Shown here: positions 47,780-56,962 of the stretch, piece after piece
Layout: every line of letters starts with the position of its first letter
Position numbering within the stretch: the stretch's first letter is position 1
From: an uncultured Armatimonadota bacterium
GTDB taxonomy: Bacteria; Armatimonadota; Fimbriimonadia; Fimbriimonadales; Fimbriimonadaceae
Reading direction: 5' to 3'
Length of the DNA: 64,000 nucleotides
Assembly: GCA_903927025.1 (NCBI GenBank)
Contig: CAIYLG010000021.1
Span: 124,001 to 188,000, forward strand
Notes under the pieces: generated by a model
The model's input: only the letters and a program-made list of their open reading frames with translations
What the model was told of the DNA's origin: nothing
The model's database searches: none
Program-made: the position numbers and the translations under genes

Positions 47780-47872
47780 ATGGGCGTCTCACAAGATTAC
47801 CGGTCCTACCCTCCGACCTCGCAACCGCTGCAGATTGGCATCCAAAGTGCCAAGACCGGTACGCTATCCAGC

Positions 47873-48388
47873 ATGGCAACTCCTACTGTCGGCGACGAAA
47901 TCGCCGTCATGCAAACGAATTACGGCAAAATCGTCATCCAGTTCTTCCCGGACAAGGCTCCAAAGCACGTCGAGAACTTCAAGAAGCTGGCTCGAGAAGG
48001 CTTTTACGACGGCACAAAGTTCCACCGCGTGATCCCCGGATTCATGATCCAGGGCGGAGATCCCAATTCCAAATCGGATGATAGAAGCATCCACGGAACC
48101 GGCGGCCCTGGCCACCGTATCCCTCAGGAGTTCAACGACACCCCTCACGATCGCGGAATCCTCAGCGCGGCACGGTCATCCGATCCAAATTCCGCAGGCT
48201 CGCAGTTCTTCCTGATGGTGGCCCGATCCCCACACCTGGATCGTCAGTACTCCGTGTACGGCGAAATCATCGAAGGTCTCGACGTGGTGGACAAGATCGT
48301 CGCCCTTCCTCGTGACCACCGAGATAATCCGCTTCCGGCCAACCCTGCGATCATCGAATCGGTGACGATCGAGACTTTTGGGAACTGA
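47873..48388 (+). CDS. Cyclophilin-type peptidyl-prolyl isomerase (cytoplasmic form)
   Basis: A 171-residue cyclophilin, which isomerises X-Pro bonds during protein folding. The family core is clear: FHRVIPGFMIQGGDP, then NSAGSQFFLMV. Active-site residues corresponding to CypA Arg55, Phe60 and Gln63 (F-H-R, F, Q) are in place. The ATG at 47873 is preferred over an in-frame start at 47780, since the added 31 residues lack any signal-peptide character. No export signal is visible, so it should act in the cytoplasm. An exported paralogue follows 39 bp downstream. Confidence 0.88.
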   Translation: MATPTVGDEIAVMQTNYGKIVIQFFPDKAPKHVENFKKLAREGFYDGTKFHRVIPGFMIQGGDPNSKSDDRSIHGTGGPGHRIPQEFNDTPHDRGILSAARSSDPNSAGSQFFLMVARSPHLDRQYSVYGEIIEGLDVVDKIVALPRDHRDNPLPANPAIIESVTIETFGN

Positions 48389-48427
48389 CGCCACGATCCA
48401 TACGCTATTAAACTCACTGAGAAACCT

Positions 48428-49036
48428 ATGAAACTCGCAAAGCTGGGCCTCGGCCTTCTCACCCTCTTTACCCTTGCGTCCCTTTCGCTCGGGCAGTCTC
48501 TCAAAACCGGTGCTCCGGGCGCAACTGCTCCCAAGAAGGGAGAAAAGGTTGCTGTCCTCGAAACCAATCTGGGCCGCATCGTCCTCAAGTTCTTTCCGAA
48601 GCTCGCTCCCGGTCACGTCAAGAACTTTGAGAAGCTTGCTGCCAAGGGCTTTTACGATCAGACCACCTTCCACCGAGTCATCCCCGGGTTCATGATCCAG
48701 GGCGGCGACCCCAACACCAAGCCTGGCGCAACCGGAATGCCTGGAACGGGCGGACCTGGCTACTCGATCACCGCTGAGTTCAGCACCACGCACCACTCGC
48801 GCGGCATTCTCAGCATGGCCCGAAGCCAGGACCCCAACTCTGCAGGTAGCCAGTTCTTCATCTGCGTCGCCGATGCCCCCTCCCTCGACAACCAGTACAC
48901 CGTCTTCGGTCAGGTCGTTCAGGGTATGGATGTCGTCGACAAAATCGTCAACCTCCCTCGCGACCAGCGCGACATGCCAACGCCGAAGCCGGCTGTTATG
49001 AAGTCGGTCAAGATCAAAACTTGGCCGCTTAAGTAG
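48428..49036 (+). CDS. Exported cyclophilin-type peptidyl-prolyl isomerase
   Basis: A 202-residue cyclophilin preceded by a signal peptide (MKLAKLGLGLLTLFTLASLSLG, cleavage likely after LGQ). The catalytic core matches its upstream neighbour: FHRVIPGFMIQGGDP and NSAGSQFFICVA. It would assist folding of proteins in the periplasm. The two isomerases form a tandem duplicate, one kept inside and one sent out of the cytoplasm. Confidence 0.9.
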   Translation: MKLAKLGLGLLTLFTLASLSLGQSLKTGAPGATAPKKGEKVAVLETNLGRIVLKFFPKLAPGHVKNFEKLAAKGFYDQTTFHRVIPGFMIQGGDPNTKPGATGMPGTGGPGYSITAEFSTTHHSRGILSMARSQDPNSAGSQFFICVADAPSLDNQYTVFGQVVQGMDVVDKIVNLPRDQRDMPTPKPAVMKSVKIKTWPLK

Positions 49037-49114: not shown

Positions 49115-49804
49115 TTACGCCTCTGGCGCGTACTTGCTTGGATGCACGTCCAGGCTGAAGAATTCCAGCACATCGTCCAGCCGGTCCGACTCGGCGGTGC
49201 AGGCGGTCACCAAGTTCAATTGCTTCTGTTTCGCGTCTGCGATCGCGTTGTTGCGCTGCAGAATTTCCGCCTGAAGGGCGGCTATCTCCGCTTCAGCTTT
49301 CGAAACGTACTGCGTTGCCTGTTCCGCATAGCTCTTGGCATACGCCGTTAGCGCGGCTAACTTGCGAGATGCGTCCGCGACGATGGCGTCGGGGGTGACG
49401 CCAGTCGCCTTGGCCATCGCATTGATCGTGACCTTAACCGTTGCGCGCTTCGCCTCAAGAGGAAGCTCCGCAGGCAAAGTCGCCAAAAGCTCAAGCACCT
49501 GCTCGGCTGAAAATGGCGAGTTTGGAAGGTTGGCCAAACTGTAAATTGCCGTGAAGTCGACGTTCCCTTGCCCATCCACAGGTTGGAAATTCGAAGTCGT
49601 TGCCGCGGCCGGCTTGATCTCATCAAGGTTGGGACCAGGCGCATCCCGGACAATCTGCTCCACCGTCTTAGCAGGCTGAACTGTCTCCTCAGGTCTTGAC
49701 TTTGGAGCGTCCATTACATTCCACGGCTTGACTTCTTTAGGCTCTGCGTCCGGGAGTTCCACGAACAATCCAGCGGCTCTTCTAAGGGTCTCTTCTATTC
49801 TCAT
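49115..49804 (-). CDS. Coiled-coil protein, last gene of the OmpA-fused ABC operon
   Basis: A 229-residue soluble protein without signal peptide. A disordered N-terminal third (EPKEVKPWNVMDAPKSRPEE) is followed by a helical domain (VLELLATLPAELPLEAKRA, then VKVTINAMAKATGV). A long Ala/Gln-rich coiled coil (about residues 140-200: YAKSYAEQATQYVSKAEAEI) follows and a short tail ends the protein. No family is recognised. It is 51 bp downstream of the 307-residue membrane coiled-coil protein in the five-gene run from 54356. The two partners could form an oligomeric scaffold on the cytoplasmic face of the transporter; this is inferred from position and helical content only. Confidence 0.65.
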   Translation of the reverse strand: MRIEETLRRAAGLFVELPDAEPKEVKPWNVMDAPKSRPEETVQPAKTVEQIVRDAPGPNLDEIKPAAATTSNFQPVDGQGNVDFTAIYSLANLPNSPFSAEQVLELLATLPAELPLEAKRATVKVTINAMAKATGVTPDAIVADASRKLAALTAYAKSYAEQATQYVSKAEAEIAALQAEILQRNNAIADAKQKQLNLVTACTAESDRLDDVLEFFSLDVHPSKYAPEA

Positions 49805-49855
49805 ATTCGATTCCTTTCAACGGCCCCTAACCTGAAGTCGCCGCGACTCATTATT

Positions 49856-50779
49856 CTAGCGCTGCCCGGGAAGGTCGTACAGCTTCGAGGCACCTGCGGC
49901 GACTGGCATCTGGTCGAACGGGGAGACATCCTGCAGCGTTTCTGTCAGGTTGTCAGACTGGTTGACGACGTCCTCGATATCGGCAAGTACCTGCTCTGGA
50001 GACCGCGCTCGGATTTCATCGTTGATGAGCCCAAACGTGTCTTCCATCAAATGGAGCTGGTGATTCAGGTTCGTCAGAATCTCACCAATCTGCCCCACAT
50101 ACTGCCTTCGACGGGTGAGGATGTCCTTCCTCTTGTCCAAAACCGCGCGATTATGCAGGTTCTCATCCTTCTTCAAGAGGTCGTCGATGCCAGTCACTTC
50201 ATCCGCATATCGCTGCTGAATAATGGACACCGTTGAGAGAATCCACTCCTCGTCATTCTCCCCAGTTGGGTCAACCCGTCGAACAACCCGGCGCAAAGGC
50301 TGGCTGATCGCTGGGGGCGAAACAAGGGTTCCCGGATCGGTCTCATCCAACACTGACTTGAGGTAGGTTTGAAACTGCACCTGCTTGCTGGCGAACAGCA
50401 GGAATTTCTCCATCAGGTAATCCAGCTTTCGGAGAACTTCCCGAAACCACTTCATTCCATCGACTGTCTGGCTACCGATCTGATTTCGTGTGGTTTCAAG
50501 CCGAGCGAATCGGGCCATCACCGAACTAGGCAGGGTCGGTCCGACTTCTCGCACCAGCTTCTCCCGTCTTGCGATGACCTCTTGGTCATACCGAGTTGCT
50601 AGGCGATCCATGTACCATTTGGAGTCGGGTGTAAACAGCAGATAGACCGTTTCTGCAACCAAACCAATTAGGAGCGGAACCGGCGTTAGAAGAGCAGCCG
50701 AAGCCGCAAAGAGTCCCGCCAAGCCAATGACGTTGTAGCTCTCTGAGAATGCTTGCTTGAATCGACTGGAACCTGGCAT
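49856..50779 (-). CDS. Membrane-associated coiled-coil protein in the OmpA-fused ABC operon
   Basis: A 307-residue protein with one or two hydrophobic N-terminal segments (NVIGLAGLFAASAALLTPVPLLI and LVAETVYLL), then a long charged, mostly helical cytoplasmic region (about residues 60-260). It includes FARLETTRNQIGSQ and LTRRRQYVGQIGEILTNLNHQLHLMEDTFGLI, which look coiled-coil. No catalytic motif is present. It lies 45 bp downstream of the ATPase gene and 51 bp upstream of the 229-residue coiled-coil gene. The arrangement ABC transporter + membrane coiled coil + soluble coiled coil is unusual. Confidence 0.7.
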   Translation of the reverse strand: MPGSSRFKQAFSESYNVIGLAGLFAASAALLTPVPLLIGLVAETVYLLFTPDSKWYMDRLATRYDQEVIARREKLVREVGPTLPSSVMARFARLETTRNQIGSQTVDGMKWFREVLRKLDYLMEKFLLFASKQVQFQTYLKSVLDETDPGTLVSPPAISQPLRRVVRRVDPTGENDEEWILSTVSIIQQRYADEVTGIDDLLKKDENLHNRAVLDKRKDILTRRRQYVGQIGEILTNLNHQLHLMEDTFGLINDEIRARSPEQVLADIEDVVNQSDNLTETLQDVSPFDQMPVAAGASKLYDLPGQR

Positions 50780-50824
50780 ACCTGCTACCGACGCTGACCC
50801 TCGTGAATCTACCCAGAAACGAGT

Positions 50825-51652
50825 TCAGAGACTCGGGAAAATATCTCGAATCTCCTTCAAAAGGGCAAGGAATTCAGGGGTGGAGGTCAGATTGTTGTGC
50901 CAGGCCAAGCCCCGATCAATAAGGTTGTACGTCGCCCGAACTCTCGCACCAGGGATGATTTGTCCATCCGGAGTTCTGTCTCGGCCAAGTAGCCAAATCG
51001 TATCGCAGACCTCAATCGCCGCAGCCACATCGTGGGTCACGAGGATAAATGTCTTCAAATCGTCAGACCCGGCAACTTCGGTGATAAAGTCGCTTACCTT
51101 GGAGACTGCGACCAAATCAAGCCCAGAAAAGGGCTCGTCCATCAGCAGAAAATGCTCGCTGCACATGAACTGCTGGCCGATGGCAATGCGCTGCCTCTGA
51201 CCACCAGAGAGTTGGACCGGATACTTTTTGCCGCAATCCTCCATGTCGAAGCGCTTGAGAAGCTCCAATGCCTTAGTCTCCGCCTCTGACCTCGACATTC
51301 CGGCCTGACGTCCCCCAACAACAAGGTTGCCCATCACTGTTCGGTGAGCAAACAGCGGATAGTGCTGAGCAACAACGCCCACCGACCCCCTTTTGATCTG
51401 CACCCCATCCCCAATCCGTACTTCGCCTGAATCGGGCTTCATGAGACCGGCAAGGATGCGGAACAGAGTTGTCTTTCCGACGCCGGATGGGCCGAGTAGC
51501 CCCACAACCTGGCCCTGCTTCTGGTTCGGCCGCATGATATTGCGTATCTCGGCGTTAACATCCTTGAGGACAGGTACGCCTTCGTAGCTCATGCACACGC
51601 CATCGATGGTCAGCAGCGTATCTCCGAGGGTGTATTCCTCAGGGGTCTGCAT
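50825..51652 (-). CDS. ABC ATPase of the OmpA-fused system (NrtD/SsuB class)
   Basis: A 275-residue ATPase. Walker A is GPSGVGKTTLF (about residues 55-65), the signature LSGGQRQRIAI, Walker B FLLMDEPFSGLD and the switch His in VTHDVAAAIEVCD. It would power substrate transfer across the inner membrane. Its ATG overlaps the permease stop by one base (TAATG), so the two are translationally coupled. Sequence class suggests small anions or amines (nitrate, sulfonate, taurine type) rather than sugars, but the substrate is not known. Confidence 0.93.
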   Translation of the reverse strand: MQTPEEYTLGDTLLTIDGVCMSYEGVPVLKDVNAEIRNIMRPNQKQGQVVGLLGPSGVGKTTLFRILAGLMKPDSGEVRIGDGVQIKRGSVGVVAQHYPLFAHRTVMGNLVVGGRQAGMSRSEAETKALELLKRFDMEDCGKKYPVQLSGGQRQRIAIGQQFMCSEHFLLMDEPFSGLDLVAVSKVSDFITEVAGSDDLKTFILVTHDVAAAIEVCDTIWLLGRDRTPDGQIIPGARVRATYNLIDRGLAWHNNLTSTPEFLALLKEIRDIFPSL

Positions 51653-52542
51653 TACCGCCTCTCCAGCGTCAGGTCAGCGTAGGGGCAACACGCTCGCCTC
51701 AGCAATCCAATCATCGCGTCTTGGCTGAGCCCGACGATCAAAATGACGATCTGAATCGCAAAAACTTCTGGCAGGTGAAAATATTTATCCTGCGCGATTA
51801 GGGCGGTTCCCACGCCCCCTTCAGACTTTACAATTCCCTCAACCATCGCCAGCATCATCCATCCCATTGCCGCGTTTTGGCGAAGAACCTCGAAGGCCTT
51901 GTCTGCGGTGCCGAGGATGACCACCTCGTAAACAACCCTCCATTCGCTCATGCGCAAAGTGCGCGCATGGTCAAATTCCGACTTAGGGATATTGGCGATC
52001 ACCGATGCCATAGAGGTGACAAAGAAGACAGTGATACCAAAAACCAGCATTGCTGTCTTTAGAGGATGTCCGCCACCCAGCATGATCGTGAAGACTGTGG
52101 AGAAGCCGATCATGCTCAGAAATCTGCCCTTGGACAAAGCAACGACAATCGGGCGAAATACCGGCAGCACCGTAAGATACGCCAACACCAAAGAGATGAG
52201 AGCGGACCATCCCAGTGCCTGAACGTTGAGTCCGAAGCTAGTGATCAGATCCTGACCGAGACCATCCTTCATCCAAAGCTTGCCCAGAGCAGTCCAGACT
52301 TCACCTGGCTGAGGCAACACCTTGAAGGGCGATTTGAACCAAACGGCGAGAGCGATCAGTGCCTCCACCAGGATGATCATCCGCATCGTGGATGCGGAGA
52401 CCACCCGGTTGGGCAGAAAGATCGCGTAGGGGTCCTTCCGTTGCTTCTTACGGTCAGTGAGGTCGCCAAACTTCAGCGCCTCGCTGCCATGGGCTCCGGC
52501 CACCACTCTTCTTGCGGGGGCCGGAGGCTTTGATTCGTCCAT
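51652..52542 (-). CDS. ABC permease of the OmpA-fused system
   Basis: A 296-residue BPD_transp_1 permease with about six transmembrane helices. The EAA-type coupling loop includes IPKSEFDHARTLRMSEWRVVYE and contacts the ATPase. It has a 45-residue hydrophilic N-terminus (PAPARRVVAGAHGSEALKFG) that is longer than in ordinary NitT/TauT permeases. It starts 2 bp after the binding-protein stop and overlaps the ATPase start, an arrangement of tight coupling. Confidence 0.9.
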   Translation of the reverse strand: MDESKPPAPARRVVAGAHGSEALKFGDLTDRKKQRKDPYAIFLPNRVVSASTMRMIILVEALIALAVWFKSPFKVLPQPGEVWTALGKLWMKDGLGQDLITSFGLNVQALGWSALISLVLAYLTVLPVFRPIVVALSKGRFLSMIGFSTVFTIMLGGGHPLKTAMLVFGITVFFVTSMASVIANIPKSEFDHARTLRMSEWRVVYEVVILGTADKAFEVLRQNAAMGWMMLAMVEGIVKSEGGVGTALIAQDKYFHLPEVFAIQIVILIVGLSQDAMIGLLRRACCPYADLTLERR

Positions 52543-52544
52543 GG

Positions 52545-54356
52545 CTACTTGATACTCTGAATGATCACCTCAACGCGACGATTTTGGGCTCTGCCCGCAT
52601 TCGTTGTGTTGGGTGCCAAAGGCTCTTCCTGGCCGCGAGCCACGATCTTGATTCGACCAGATGGGAAGTTCAGCGGGAACGCCTTCTCCAGCCAACTCTT
52701 CACCGCAAATGCGCGCGCTTCTGAGAGGGACATATTGGACGATGGATTGCCCACATTATCTGTGTGGCCCCGAATCTCAACCGTTGTGTTGCTTGCGACA
52801 AGGAGGTCCTGTCGAAGCTTTTCTAGGTCATGCTGAGCCGCCGGCGAGAAGGTGGCCCGACCGGTATCGAATGGAATGTGCCATTCCTTCTTGCTGAGTG
52901 CAATGCCCGGTGCCTGAGTGGGGTTGACCGTCGGCTTGGGTGTCGACGTATCCAAGTTCTTACTCTGTAGATCCTTGTAGTAAGAGGTATCCAGCGCCAG
53001 ATCCAGTGAGTCGATGCTCGGTACCAGGTTGGGATACTGTTGCACCACGAGGTTTCCAAACAGGCTGTAGGTGGCTCCGAAAAGGTTTGCACCACCCTTC
53101 GCTAGGCCGAAGCTTACAAAGCTGTCAGAAAGGTTGCTGGCCATCGAGCCGCCGAGGCCGATAGGCACGCCGGTCTTGTCCTGTTCCTGAGCGCCCTTGT
53201 AGTACTTCTCCCAGTAGGAGGCATCTGAATCTTTCTCGTGATACAGCTTGGCGCTGACCTGAGACGCCAGATGCAGTGCGGCATCGCTGCTCTTGACCGC
53301 ATCGCCACCCTCAGCGATCGCAAGCAACATGCCGTCCACCGTGCTGCGGTTTGACTTCATCCACTTATCGATGCCGATGAGGACGCATGGCATCTGGGAG
53401 GCATATTCCTTCGTAGAAACGATGGGCACCAGCCCGCCCTTTTGCTTGGCGACGTTCACGTCGCCGGGAGTCCAGGTTACGCAGGCGTTGACGGTGACAA
53501 CTTGGTTTTCACCAGTTTTCTTTCCATTTCGCACGACTGGCCTAGTCTCGGAATAGCCAGTGATGTACTTCTTAGCCGCGTCGAGATAGTCGTCTGCATT
53601 CACCCAGTTGAGGGCATCAGGATCGAATGTCTTCTCGTTGGGGTTCGACTTGAGGCCATTGTCGCCAAGCCACTTCTGAGCGATGTTCCAGTCGCCATCC
53701 CGGATAACGCCAGCAACAAGTCCGCCTCGGCTTGCGACGGGTTCTAGCTTCCAGGCCGCCGGGCCCATGAATTTGTCTTCACCACGCGAATACCCAATCG
53801 AACCGACAACCTTTGCTCGGTATTCGGGGCCGAGCTTCTTCAAGTTGTCGTTGAGTCCCTTCAGGAACGTCGCGCTTCCATCTCCCATGATCGCCACAAA
53901 GTGGACGCCTTTGGATGGGTTTGGATTGCCCTGGCTCAGCTCGGTTGCGAAAGCCACGAGCTGATCGGCGAGCTTGCCGTTGTCATCTTGGCGCTCCCAC
54001 TTAAGGTTCACGCCGTTCTCGCACATGAGGCTGTTAGCAGTGCTCTGGGCACCGCCGGTTGCGAACATGAGACCCATCTGGGCGTTCCAGGCGTAGCCCA
54101 GCATCCGAACTTCTGGCTTGTCCGTGCAGCCGCCGCCGGTATCCATGCCAGGCATCGAGACGGTCTTCCCTGTTCCACCCGCATCGTTGATGTCCGGAAG
54201 CACGATTTTGCCGACAGTAACGCTGTTCAGCGGATCGGAACTTCCCGGAGCAAGGCTTGAGAATGCCTGCGGTCCTTTCCATATGCGATAGCCACCCATC
54301 GCAATTCCAATAACAAGCAGGATAACAACGATCTTTCCAGACGCTTTTAGACGCAT
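52545..54356 (-). CDS. Membrane-anchored NitT/TauT-type binding protein fused to an OmpA domain
   Basis: A 603-residue protein in three parts. (1) An N-terminal transmembrane anchor (IVVILLVIGIAMGGYRIW). (2) A substrate-binding fold with an NMT1/PstS-like appearance (about residues 50-440), including GYAWNAQMGLMFATGG and VTVNACVTWTPGDVN. (3) After a Pro/Thr linker (about 460-485), an OmpA/MotB peptidoglycan-binding domain with the hallmarks EIRGHTDNVG, LSEARAFAVKSWL and ARGQEEPLAPN...GRAQNRRVEV. The start at 54356 is chosen from the GGGAGGAG ribosome-binding site upstream; an in-frame TTG six codons earlier overlaps that site. The fusion would tether the binding protein to both inner membrane and cell wall. 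Confidence 0.9.
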   Translation of the reverse strand: MRLKASGKIVVILLVIGIAMGGYRIWKGPQAFSSLAPGSSDPLNSVTVGKIVLPDINDAGGTGKTVSMPGMDTGGGCTDKPEVRMLGYAWNAQMGLMFATGGAQSTANSLMCENGVNLKWERQDDNGKLADQLVAFATELSQGNPNPSKGVHFVAIMGDGSATFLKGLNDNLKKLGPEYRAKVVGSIGYSRGEDKFMGPAAWKLEPVASRGGLVAGVIRDGDWNIAQKWLGDNGLKSNPNEKTFDPDALNWVNADDYLDAAKKYITGYSETRPVVRNGKKTGENQVVTVNACVTWTPGDVNVAKQKGGLVPIVSTKEYASQMPCVLIGIDKWMKSNRSTVDGMLLAIAEGGDAVKSSDAALHLASQVSAKLYHEKDSDASYWEKYYKGAQEQDKTGVPIGLGGSMASNLSDSFVSFGLAKGGANLFGATYSLFGNLVVQQYPNLVPSIDSLDLALDTSYYKDLQSKNLDTSTPKPTVNPTQAPGIALSKKEWHIPFDTGRATFSPAAQHDLEKLRQDLLVASNTTVEIRGHTDNVGNPSSNMSLSEARAFAVKSWLEKAFPLNFPSGRIKIVARGQEEPLAPNTTNAGRAQNRRVEVIIQSIK

Positions 54357-54687: not shown

Positions 54688-55104
54688 ATGGCAAGCAGCT
54701 TTCGAATCCTGTTGGTAGAGGATAACGCAGATGATGAGCACCTCACCCTGCGTGCGCTTCGCAACTTAGGTGACGAGGTGGAACTAGAAGTTGCCCGCGA
54801 CGGCCAACTCGCCCTGGACCGAATCCTAAATCCAAGTGCGCCTCTGATCAACCTCATTTTGCTAGACCTCCACTTGCCTAAGGTGAGCGGCATCGAAGTC
54901 CTCAACGCAGTTCGGTCGGACGCAGCCACCTCCGAAATCCCTGTGGTCGTGCTCACCTCATTCGAAGAACCCGACGACATTAAGGCGAGCTATCAACGGC
55001 ATGCAAACAGCTACATCAAAAAGCCTGTCTCCCGAGAGGAGTTTGCCAGCGTGGTTCAGAAACTTGGCATCTACTGGCATGACATCAACGTCAAGCCGGG
55101 CTAG
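54688..55104 (+). CDS. Single-domain response regulator (Rcp1-like receiver)
   Basis: A 138-residue stand-alone receiver. The acidic pair is in LLVEDNADDEH, the phosphorylated Asp in LILLDLHLPKVSG (about residue 61), the switch Thr/Ser in VVLTSF and the Lys in YIKKPVS. There is no DNA-binding domain. The N-terminal EDNADDEHLTLRALR and the LHLPKVSGIEVL loop match the Rcp1 family that pairs with phytochrome-like kinases in cyanobacteria and others. No histidine kinase is adjacent. It is divergent from the OmpA-fused ABC operon and ends 61 bp before lepA. Confidence 0.9.
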   Translation: MASSFRILLVEDNADDEHLTLRALRNLGDEVELEVARDGQLALDRILNPSAPLINLILLDLHLPKVSGIEVLNAVRSDAATSEIPVVVLTSFEEPDDIKASYQRHANSYIKKPVSREEFASVVQKLGIYWHDINVKPG

Positions 55105-55165
55105 ATCCCTTCGCTCATACCTGGGAACCTAGCCTGCAGAAAGGTAGAATGTGCGTTCCCCGCCT

Positions 55166-56962
55166 ATGGATCAATCCCACATCCGAAACTTCTGCATCAT
55201 TGCGCATATCGATCATGGCAAGAGCACGCTTGCTGATCGACTGATCGAGCGCTGTGGTGCCATTCGTGGGACGGCTCAAGAGCAAATGCTCGACTCGATG
55301 GACATTGAGCGTGAGCGCGGTATCACGATTAAAATGGCCGCAGTCCGCCTCAACTACAAGGCGAAGAACGGTGAGACTTACCAGCTCAACCTCATTGATA
55401 CGCCGGGACACGTCGACTTCACCTATGAAGTATCGCGTGCGCTCGCCGCATGCGAAGGCGCGATTCTCGTGGTGGATGCCAGCCAGGGTGTCGAAGCTCA
55501 AACCATCGCAAACGCAAGCATGGCGATGAACCAGAACCTGGAAATCATCCCCGTCATCAACAAAATCGACCTTCCCCATGCCGACATTGAGCGCGCAAAG
55601 GAAGAGATCGAAATGGCGGTTGCGATCGATACAACCGATGCGATTCCCTGCTCCGCTAAATCCGGAATCGGCATCGAAGAGATTCTCGAAGCAATTGTGC
55701 TCCGGGTGCCATCTCCAGTCGGCGACCCCAACGCGCCGCTGAGAGCCCTCATCTACGACTCCCACTTTGATGCGTACCAAGGCGCGGTTGCCTACCTCCG
55801 CGTGAAGGACGGCAGCGTCAAGAAGGGCGACAAGATCATGATGATGGCGACCGGGTCAAAGTTTGACATCGACTCGACCGGCCACTTCAACCCTGCCCTC
55901 GAAGTCGATTTTGGTCTCATGACTGGCGAGGTTGGTTTCCTTACCGCTTCCATGAAGAGCATCGGCGACGCCCGCGTTGGCGACACAGTGACCCTTGCCA
56001 ACAACCCGGCCACCGTCGCCCTTCCCGGCTACCGAAAGGCGCTCAGCATGGTTTTCTGCGGCCTCTATCCGACCGATGGAGACCAATACCAAGATTTGCG
56101 CGACGCCATCGACAAGCTGCGATTGAATGACGCCTCCCTCGACTTCGAACCAGAGACTTCCGCCGCTCTAGGCTTTGGGTTCCGTTGCGGCTTCTTGGGA
56201 CTTCTCCACATGGAGATCGCTCGAGAGAGACTTGAGCGTGAGTTCGGCCTAGACCTTATCCTTACCGCACCGTCGGTGGACTATAAGATCACCTACAAGA
56301 ACGGCGAGCAGGCGCACATATCCAACCCGACTGAGTTCCCTCAGCCCCACGAGTTGGAACTAATCGAGGAACCAATCGTGAATGCCACGATCATGGTCCC
56401 GGTCGAATATGTCGGCGCAGTCATGAACCTCTGCCAGGAGCGACGAGGCGTCTACAAGAAGACGGACTATCCAACTCCCCAGCGCGTCATCCTTTACTAC
56501 ACGCTTCCTCTGGGTGAAATCCTTCTCGACTTCTTTGACAAGCTCAAGTCCCACACACGTGGCTACGCTTCGCTGGACTATGAACTAGCCGGCTATCAGG
56601 CATCTGACCTCGTCAAGGTGGACGTCCTCCTCAACGGCGACATTGTGGACGCCCTCAGCTTCATCGTTCACCGTGAGTTCTCCTACTACCGAGGAAAGGG
56701 AATTGTCGAGCAGCTGAGAAAGGTCGTTCCGCGCCAGCAGTACGAAGTCCGTGTGCAGGCCGCTCTCGGAGCCAAGGTCATCGCTGCCGACTCGATCAAG
56801 CCGTTCCGAAAGAACGTTATTGCCAAATGCTACGGAGGAGACATCTCGCGAAAGCGAAAGCTCCTAGAGAAGCAGAAGGAAGGCAAGAAGCGAATGAAGC
56901 AGATTGGCAGCATCGAACTGCCGCAGGAAGCGTTCCTCAGCGTTCTTAAAGTCGCGGATTAG
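55166..56962 (+). CDS. lepA: Elongation factor 4 (LepA), translational GTPase
   Basis: LepA is the ribosome-bound GTPase that back-translocates stalled ribosomes or promotes ribosome assembly. G-domain motifs are [12 protein letters not shown] (G1), DTPGHVDF (G3) and NKIDLPHAD (G4). The LepA-specific C-terminus ends with [20 protein letters not shown]. Length from the ATG at 55166 (MDQSHIRNF) is 598 residues, the family norm; a GTG at 55151 would add five. Housekeeping gene; the DUF2252 gene starts 8 bp after it. Confidence 0.97.

Follow-up and report, generated by a model that had tools for sequence, protein, structure and literature searches.

A wall-anchored ABC transporter operon with helical partner proteins in an uncultured Armatimonadota bacterium, its relatives in bacteria and huge phages, and a possible link to PspA/ESCRT-III-type membrane maintenance

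Operons that combine PspA, transmembrane (TM) Snf7 homologues, an AAA+ protein, an ATP-binding cassette (ABC) ATPase, a permease and a PBPB-OmpA protein have been described in bacteria (Ravi et al. 2024, mSystems, PMC11237479; example OGG56892.1), and the passage that treats them proposes that membrane remodelling is linked with solute transport in such bacterial operons. A related set of five genes lies in the stretch analyzed here, referred to as the window (64,000 nucleotides of an uncultured Armatimonadota bacterium; assembly GCA_903927025.1, contig CAIYLG010000021.1, positions 124,001 to 188,000). The five co-directional genes occupy positions 54356-49115 of the minus strand with intergenic gaps of 2, −1, 45 and 51 bp, and their place, strand and spacing, as given in the original prediction for this DNA, were all reproduced in the sequence. 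They encode a solute-binding protein (SBP) fused to an OmpA domain (g1), a permease (g2), an ATPase (g3) and two helical partners, designated G4a (g4) and G5 (g5). The best explanation of this set, which is given about an even chance, is a wall-anchored ABC importer that is physically joined to a PspA/ESCRT-III-type scaffold on the inner face of the membrane and links ligand uptake to membrane maintenance. The physical complex, the direction of transport, the ligand and the membrane action of the assembly are features that we infer from the sequences.

Both ends of the SBP have the anchors originally predicted for them. At the N-terminus, a TM helix is seen in the window protein, and a hydrophobic segment is present within the first 75 residues of 93 of the 108 full-length relatives, only one of which has a lipobox-like motif. 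At the C-terminus, the OmpA domain matches PF00691 directly, and its GHTDN and LSxxRA motifs align with those of solved peptidoglycan-binding OmpA domains and retain both the D and the R position. From OmpA and Pal structures, these two residues are known to have roles in the diaminopimelate pocket. This is the single OmpA domain detected in the whole 5.25-Mb assembly. The OmpA D/R motif is present in 92/108 full-length relatives, which indicates that nearly all of them have the two domains joined in a single protein rather than encoded by separate genes. With a TM anchor and an OmpA domain, the window protein is not a free or lipidated periplasmic binding protein. The NMT1-like fold proposed for the binding domain was reached indirectly: neither Pfam nor PDB entries match the domain directly, and a search of PDB sequences with the SBP family gave no binding-domain match, with profile A5 matching OmpA-domain chains only. 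However, the SBP homologues of a 735-kb phage, the Lak phages and phage G match NMT1/NMT1_2 above the cut-off, and because the window family aligns with these phage proteins over 382 columns, anchor included (hhalign 99.4%, E 3e-21), its binding domain is assigned to the NMT1 type. Across phyla, this domain is conserved to a degree equal to or above that of the ATPase, with identities of 59% versus 46% to Myxococcota, 54% versus 49% to Bacteroidota and 59% versus 48% to a phage copy. Binding proteins are usually the least conserved component of such importers. The unusual conservation of this one therefore suggests a single fixed ligand, probably a small and conserved compound.

By their motifs, the permease and the ATPase are of the importer class. 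The permease matches PF00528 over residues 121-282 with an E value of 1e-4, below the bit-score cut-off (Table 1); the ntrB and SaoP models also match it, and its EAA coupling loop is intact, as are the Walker A/B and LSGGQ motifs of the ATPase. These intact importer motifs, together with a binding-domain conservation that points to a ligand, do not support the earlier suggestion that sensing of force or turgor would be no less plausible than import, and no specific support for such sensing was found. The N-terminal permease extension of about 45 residues, which had been thought to set the system apart from ordinary transporters, was also discarded as a system feature: its length varies widely among relatives, without alignment, and in one relative (L022) the first TM segment starts near the N-terminus.

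The five-gene set is a true system that is made of partly exchangeable parts. Counting the window's own genome, 12 of 19 members of the genus carry the SBP, and all five genes are found in identical order in 11/11 of the same-genus relatives that carry it; the presence of G4a coincides exactly with that of the SBP among the same-genus genomes tested. In an attempt to obtain dN/dS, the nonsynonymous divergence (dN) between the window operon and its nearest relative was 0.13-0.22, and synonymous sites were saturated for four of the five genes. The fixed gene order and these dN values argue that the genes are genuine. A strong SBP match is found in 9 of 91 Armatimonadota genomes, eight of which carry G5 and eight a strong G4a match; the ninth is interrupted by a contig end within G4a, which cuts off both G4a and G5. 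The three genes co-occur among the 91 genomes (Fisher p of 5e-8 for SBP-G5, 3e-7 for SBP-G4a and 9e-11 for G4a-G5), and the proposal of a system is therefore upheld over random placement of the coiled-coil genes. G4a and G5 are not confined to this set, however. A divergent SBP-permease-ATPase set often adjoins G4a in Armatimonadota genomes that lack a strict SBP match, and in other Armatimonadota, G4a or G5 has PspA or a second anchored SBP as its partner; the parts are considered partly exchangeable because of these pairings. The second membrane-anchored binding protein (SBP_bac_11) is sometimes found with G4a or G5 where ABC genes are absent (L050:6367-7560, L142, L144, L146). In two Armatimonadota genomes that belong to one family, orphan G5 paralogues adjoin methionyl-tRNA formyltransferase-like and thus housekeeping genes (L150:6194-6847, L151:6678-7454).

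The description of the two partners as coiled-coil proteins holds for only one of them. In its AlphaFold2 (AF2) model, G5 consists of a small domain and one 80-residue helix, a clear coiled coil, whereas G4a is modeled as a membrane hairpin followed by a multi-helix domain. G5 has no Pfam match, and no PDB match to its fold was found; its bacterial and phage families align with each other (hhalign 97.5%, E 7e-12). For G4a, the best Foldseek hit is to an F-BAR protein at E 0.11, with none under 0.001, and VIA-align returned generic helical bundles, with Asgard ESCRT-IIIB at Z 8.6 over 95 residues amid many unrelated bundles. G4a has no Pfam Snf7 match, and a kinship with the TM Snf7 homologues of the described operons found no confirmation. 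Its assignment as a homologue of G4b, the coiled-coil TM protein of phage loci described below, was rejected (hhalign 12.5%).

Bacterial relatives were sought in one scan of 84,980 species genomes, and related sets were found in Armatimonadota, Abditibacteriota, Acidobacteriota, Myxococcota, Bacteroidota and groups of the candidate phyla radiation (CPR), at least six bacterial phyla in all, with Minicystis rosea as one cultured carrier; plasmids gave no G5 match. The Acidobacteriota operon has the order G5-PspA-SBP/OmpA-permease-ATPase-G4a-AAA+, and that of Abditibacterium includes a second anchored SBP together with PspA and AAA+. In Xanthocytophaga (Bacteroidota), G5 and a PspA-like G4b stand beside the ABC genes, and in Xanthocytophaga flavus a membrane-anchored Ppx/GppA-like protein with an actin fold is encoded between G4b and the binding protein (L102:6673-7704). 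The CPR-labeled loci were considered as mis-binned phage; no terminase was found in the CPR genomes concerned, and the loci were kept as bacterial.

The module is also present in huge phages. By tblastn, it was found in LR756500 (462 kb), LR756501 (735 kb) and the Lak phages, where the genes follow the order G5, G4b, SBP/OmpA, permease, ATPase, and 12 of the 16 IMG/VR contigs matched by the Lak-type SBP carry all five in order, with one pair of contigs near-identical. Of 21 distinct viral records tested, 14 have terminase genes, the 735-kb, 462-kb and Lak genomes among them, and the phage identity of these 14 is thereby confirmed. G4b, which takes the place of G4a in these loci, is PspA-like: it aligns with PspA over 183 columns (hhalign 93%), and three members match Pfam PF04012 with E values of 3e-4 to 9e-3, below the cut-off. 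The G4b family of Lak phages (L016, L017) also has weak matches to CorA; a core 'magnesium transporter' (K03284, CorA) is reported in the Lak papers, and this annotation may refer to the G4b genes. On three phage contigs (L133, L137, L139), an AAA+ ATPase gene lies beside the five-gene module, as in the Acidobacteriota operons. A 479-kb IMG/VR contig (L034, IMGVR_UViG_3300044957_000763) was set aside as a phage copy, as it nests in Armatimonadota and has no terminase match; though classed as viral, it is probably a bacterial contig. Among the huge-phage papers searched, one reports that Jug phages have a pspA-like gene next to terD, and no mention of OmpA, an ABC transporter or the five-gene cluster was found in these papers. 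The cultured Bacillus phage G carries the complete module at gp243-gp250 in a different gene order, and the annotation in its record is limited to an ABC-like permease, an ABC transporter and two proteins of OmpA/MotB type, with no mention of a system. The host of phage G is a Bacillus, with Priestia megaterium as the laboratory host, and such hosts have a meso-diaminopimelate (meso-DAP) wall. This wall type fits the OmpA domains of the phage.

In the proposed mechanism, the products of the five genes would form one envelope-spanning assembly. The N-terminal helix of the SBP would sit in the inner membrane and its C-terminal OmpA domain would grip the peptidoglycan, so that the ligand-binding domain, anchored at both ends, would be kept in the space between membrane and wall, next to its cognate permease and ATPase. 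The ABC part would be a type I importer, probably for one small conserved ligand, and G4a, with its membrane hairpin and helices, and G5, with its long coiled coil, would form a scaffold around the transporter on the inner face. The scaffold is most likely of the PspA/ESCRT-III membrane-maintenance type, since relatives fill or extend its place with PspA, a PspA-like TM protein and AAA+. Such a machine would couple ligand uptake to the stabilization or remodeling of the membrane at wall-anchored sites. The hunch of a cell-envelope role in the original prediction gains support from the presence of PspA and AAA+ in the Acidobacteriota and Abditibacteriota operons and from the replacement of G4a by a PspA-like protein in phages. 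Several observations weigh against this explanation. No PspA or AAA+ gene adjoins the window operon, and a single PspA was detected in the genome of the window, where it stands alone near a pheS-like gene (G000:C62:18293-18934). G4a has no sequence link to PspA (0/41 members match PF04012 at E<=0.05; hhalign 4.5%), so that its assignment as PspA was dropped, and the Foldseek and VIA-align searches gave no convincing match to its fold. Finally, most of the Bacteroidota loci found have only the SBP, permease and ATPase nearby, with no G4 or G5 detected; the coiled-coil partners are therefore not neighbors in every case and may be dispensable.

These three-gene loci, the canonical importer motifs and the occurrence of G5 paralogues and G4a apart from ABC genes would all be expected of an ordinary NitT/TauT-type importer with a wall-anchored SBP, for which G4a and G5 would be loose accessories or regulators with no role in membrane maintenance, and which would serve auxiliary uptake in phages. 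This alternative is possible but rather doubtful: the association of the coiled-coil genes with the transporter persists across several phyla and unrelated huge phages, PspA and AAA+ are found in the same operons, and an ordinary importer needs neither. An SBP that is anchored at both ends and associated with PspA envelope-stress proteins could instead belong to a sensor of ligand or wall state, in which the SBP-ABC unit would signal via its ATPase to the coiled-coil/PspA layer, in the manner of FtsEX-EnvC or BceAB-type systems, and report wall damage or the wall-to-membrane distance. Such a sensor is judged unlikely, as the permease and ATPase are of an importer class with an EAA coupling loop and the operon conserves neither a sensor domain nor a dedicated regulator or a hydrolase. 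The origin of the module was considered with a permease+ATPase tree that is unrooted and has no outgroup. In this tree, the phage copies require at least three deep groups by the starred branches, most bacterial copies fall in one crown clade (87% by the Shimodaira-Hasegawa-like approximate likelihood ratio test, SH-aLRT), and the CPR copies branch among those of phages. This topology, the terminase-confirmed phage records and the tandem SBP/OmpA genes of phage G could be read as signs of a primarily phage function, either to preserve the envelope of a large cell during infection or to keep other phages out at the membrane, with the bacterial copies domesticated, but this is very improbable given the lack of an outgroup, a weak key branch, CPR copies among the phages and operons that are fixed in several phyla, unlike recent phage genes.

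The coordinates of the operon and of the phage G module are collected in Table 1. The g1 start is ATG 54356, with GAGGAG located 8 nt upstream; a longer TTG start is less likely. Upstream of the operon and divergent from it are genes for a single-domain response regulator (54688-55104, plus strand) and a LepA-like GTPase (55151-56962, plus strand), and the closest relatives (L043, L045) have genes that match in size and strand at this position. Two adjoining genes for 202-residue cyclophilin-like proteins, one with a signal-like start, converge on the end of the operon (47780-49036, plus strand); the PF00160 assignment was checked for 48428-49036 only.

Table 1 Features of the window operon and of the phage G module
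Feature	Position	Strand	Length	Evidence
g1, SBP/OmpA: membrane-anchored NMT1-type binding protein with C-terminal OmpA domain	52545..54356	(-)	603 aa	
g1, N-terminal TM anchor (residues about 7-25), positively charged N-terminus, no lipobox	54282..54338	(-)		sequence
g1, NMT1-type solute-binding domain (residues about 60-470)	52947..54179	(-)		hhalign to phage SBPs
g1, OmpA/Pal-type peptidoglycan-binding domain (residues 496-593), GHTDN and LSxxRA kept	52578..52871	(-)		PF00691 E 7e-19; PDB alignments
g2, type I importer permease, NitT/TauT-like	51652..52542	(-)	296 aa	PF00528 22.4 bits (below 26.4 cut-off); ntrB and SaoP matches; phage G homologue gp243 83 bits
g3, ABC ATPase with GPSGVGKTT, LSGGQ, LLMDEPF and THD motifs	50825..51652	(-)	275 aa	PF00005 E 1e-27
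g4 (G4a), N-terminal membrane hairpin and predicted cytoplasmic multi-helix domain	49856..50779	(-)	307 aa	AF2 predicted local distance difference test score (pLDDT) 83; 41-member family alignment
G4a, hydrophobic helical hairpin (residues 14-49)	50633..50740	(-)		sequence; model helices 14-30, 34-49
g5 (G5), soluble; linker, small helical domain, one 80-residue helix	49115..49804	(-)	229 aa	AF2 pLDDT 86; family also present in huge phages
G5, long coiled-coil helix (residues 138-217)	49154..49393	(-)		AF2 model
Phage G gp243, permease				
Phage G gp245, ATPase				
Phage G gp246, G5				E 2e-18
Phage G gp247, PspA-like				58.7 bits versus bacterial operon-PspA profile, 219 positions; PF04012 E 0.36
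Phage G gp249 and gp250, two tandem NMT1 + OmpA binding proteins	L153 8803-12008			both domains above Pfam cut-off

More broadly, it is tentatively suggested, with the balance of probability against it, that these loci represent an unrecognized envelope machine of bacteria and the largest phages, with an ABC unit that grips the wall and would drive or gate a PspA/ESCRT-III-like scaffold; separate huge-phage lineages (G, Lak, 735-kb and others) would use the machine to control the infected cell's envelope, and it is perhaps older in phages than in some hosts. The analysis defines a conserved unit in which ABC transporter, cell wall and membrane proteins of the PspA type are linked. That many huge phages have this unit suggests that the largest of them come equipped with envelope machinery of their own, which is a part of their gene content that lacks an explanation. 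Since Bacillus phage G is cultured and has all the components, the question is testable in a simple laboratory system. The bacterial kind has been sketched before from gene neighborhoods, and what appears new relative to the literature searched is the version found in phages, together with the G5 family and the form without PspA.

With the operon class in the relevant passage of Ravi et al. 2024, the window operon has the ABC ATPase, permease and PBP-OmpA protein in common; it lacks the PspA and AAA+ of that class, the full set of which is matched by the Acidobacteriota relatives found here. That passage mentions neither a G5 family nor phage-borne modules, and no mention of phages or viruses was found in the main text of the article. 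Relative to PspA/IM30 of the ESCRT-III superfamily, the window operon has no PspA and its G4a no sequence link to it, whereas PspA occurs in the Acidobacteriota operons and gp247 of phage G and the phage G4b proteins are PspA-like. The NitT/TauT importers of taurine, nitrate and thiamine precursors share with the window an NMT1-type SBP (by homology), a type I permease and the ATPase class; the window SBP differs from theirs in its membrane anchor, OmpA fusion, coiled-coil partners and unusual binding-domain conservation relative to the ATPase. Finally, the clusters of phage G (gp243-gp250), Lak, 735-kb and 462-kb phages, whose genes are annotated singly or not at all, differ from the window in that G5 and the PspA-like gene precede the SBP and that phage G has two SBP/OmpA genes, and they keep permease, ATPase, G5, PspA-like and NMT1-OmpA proteins together.

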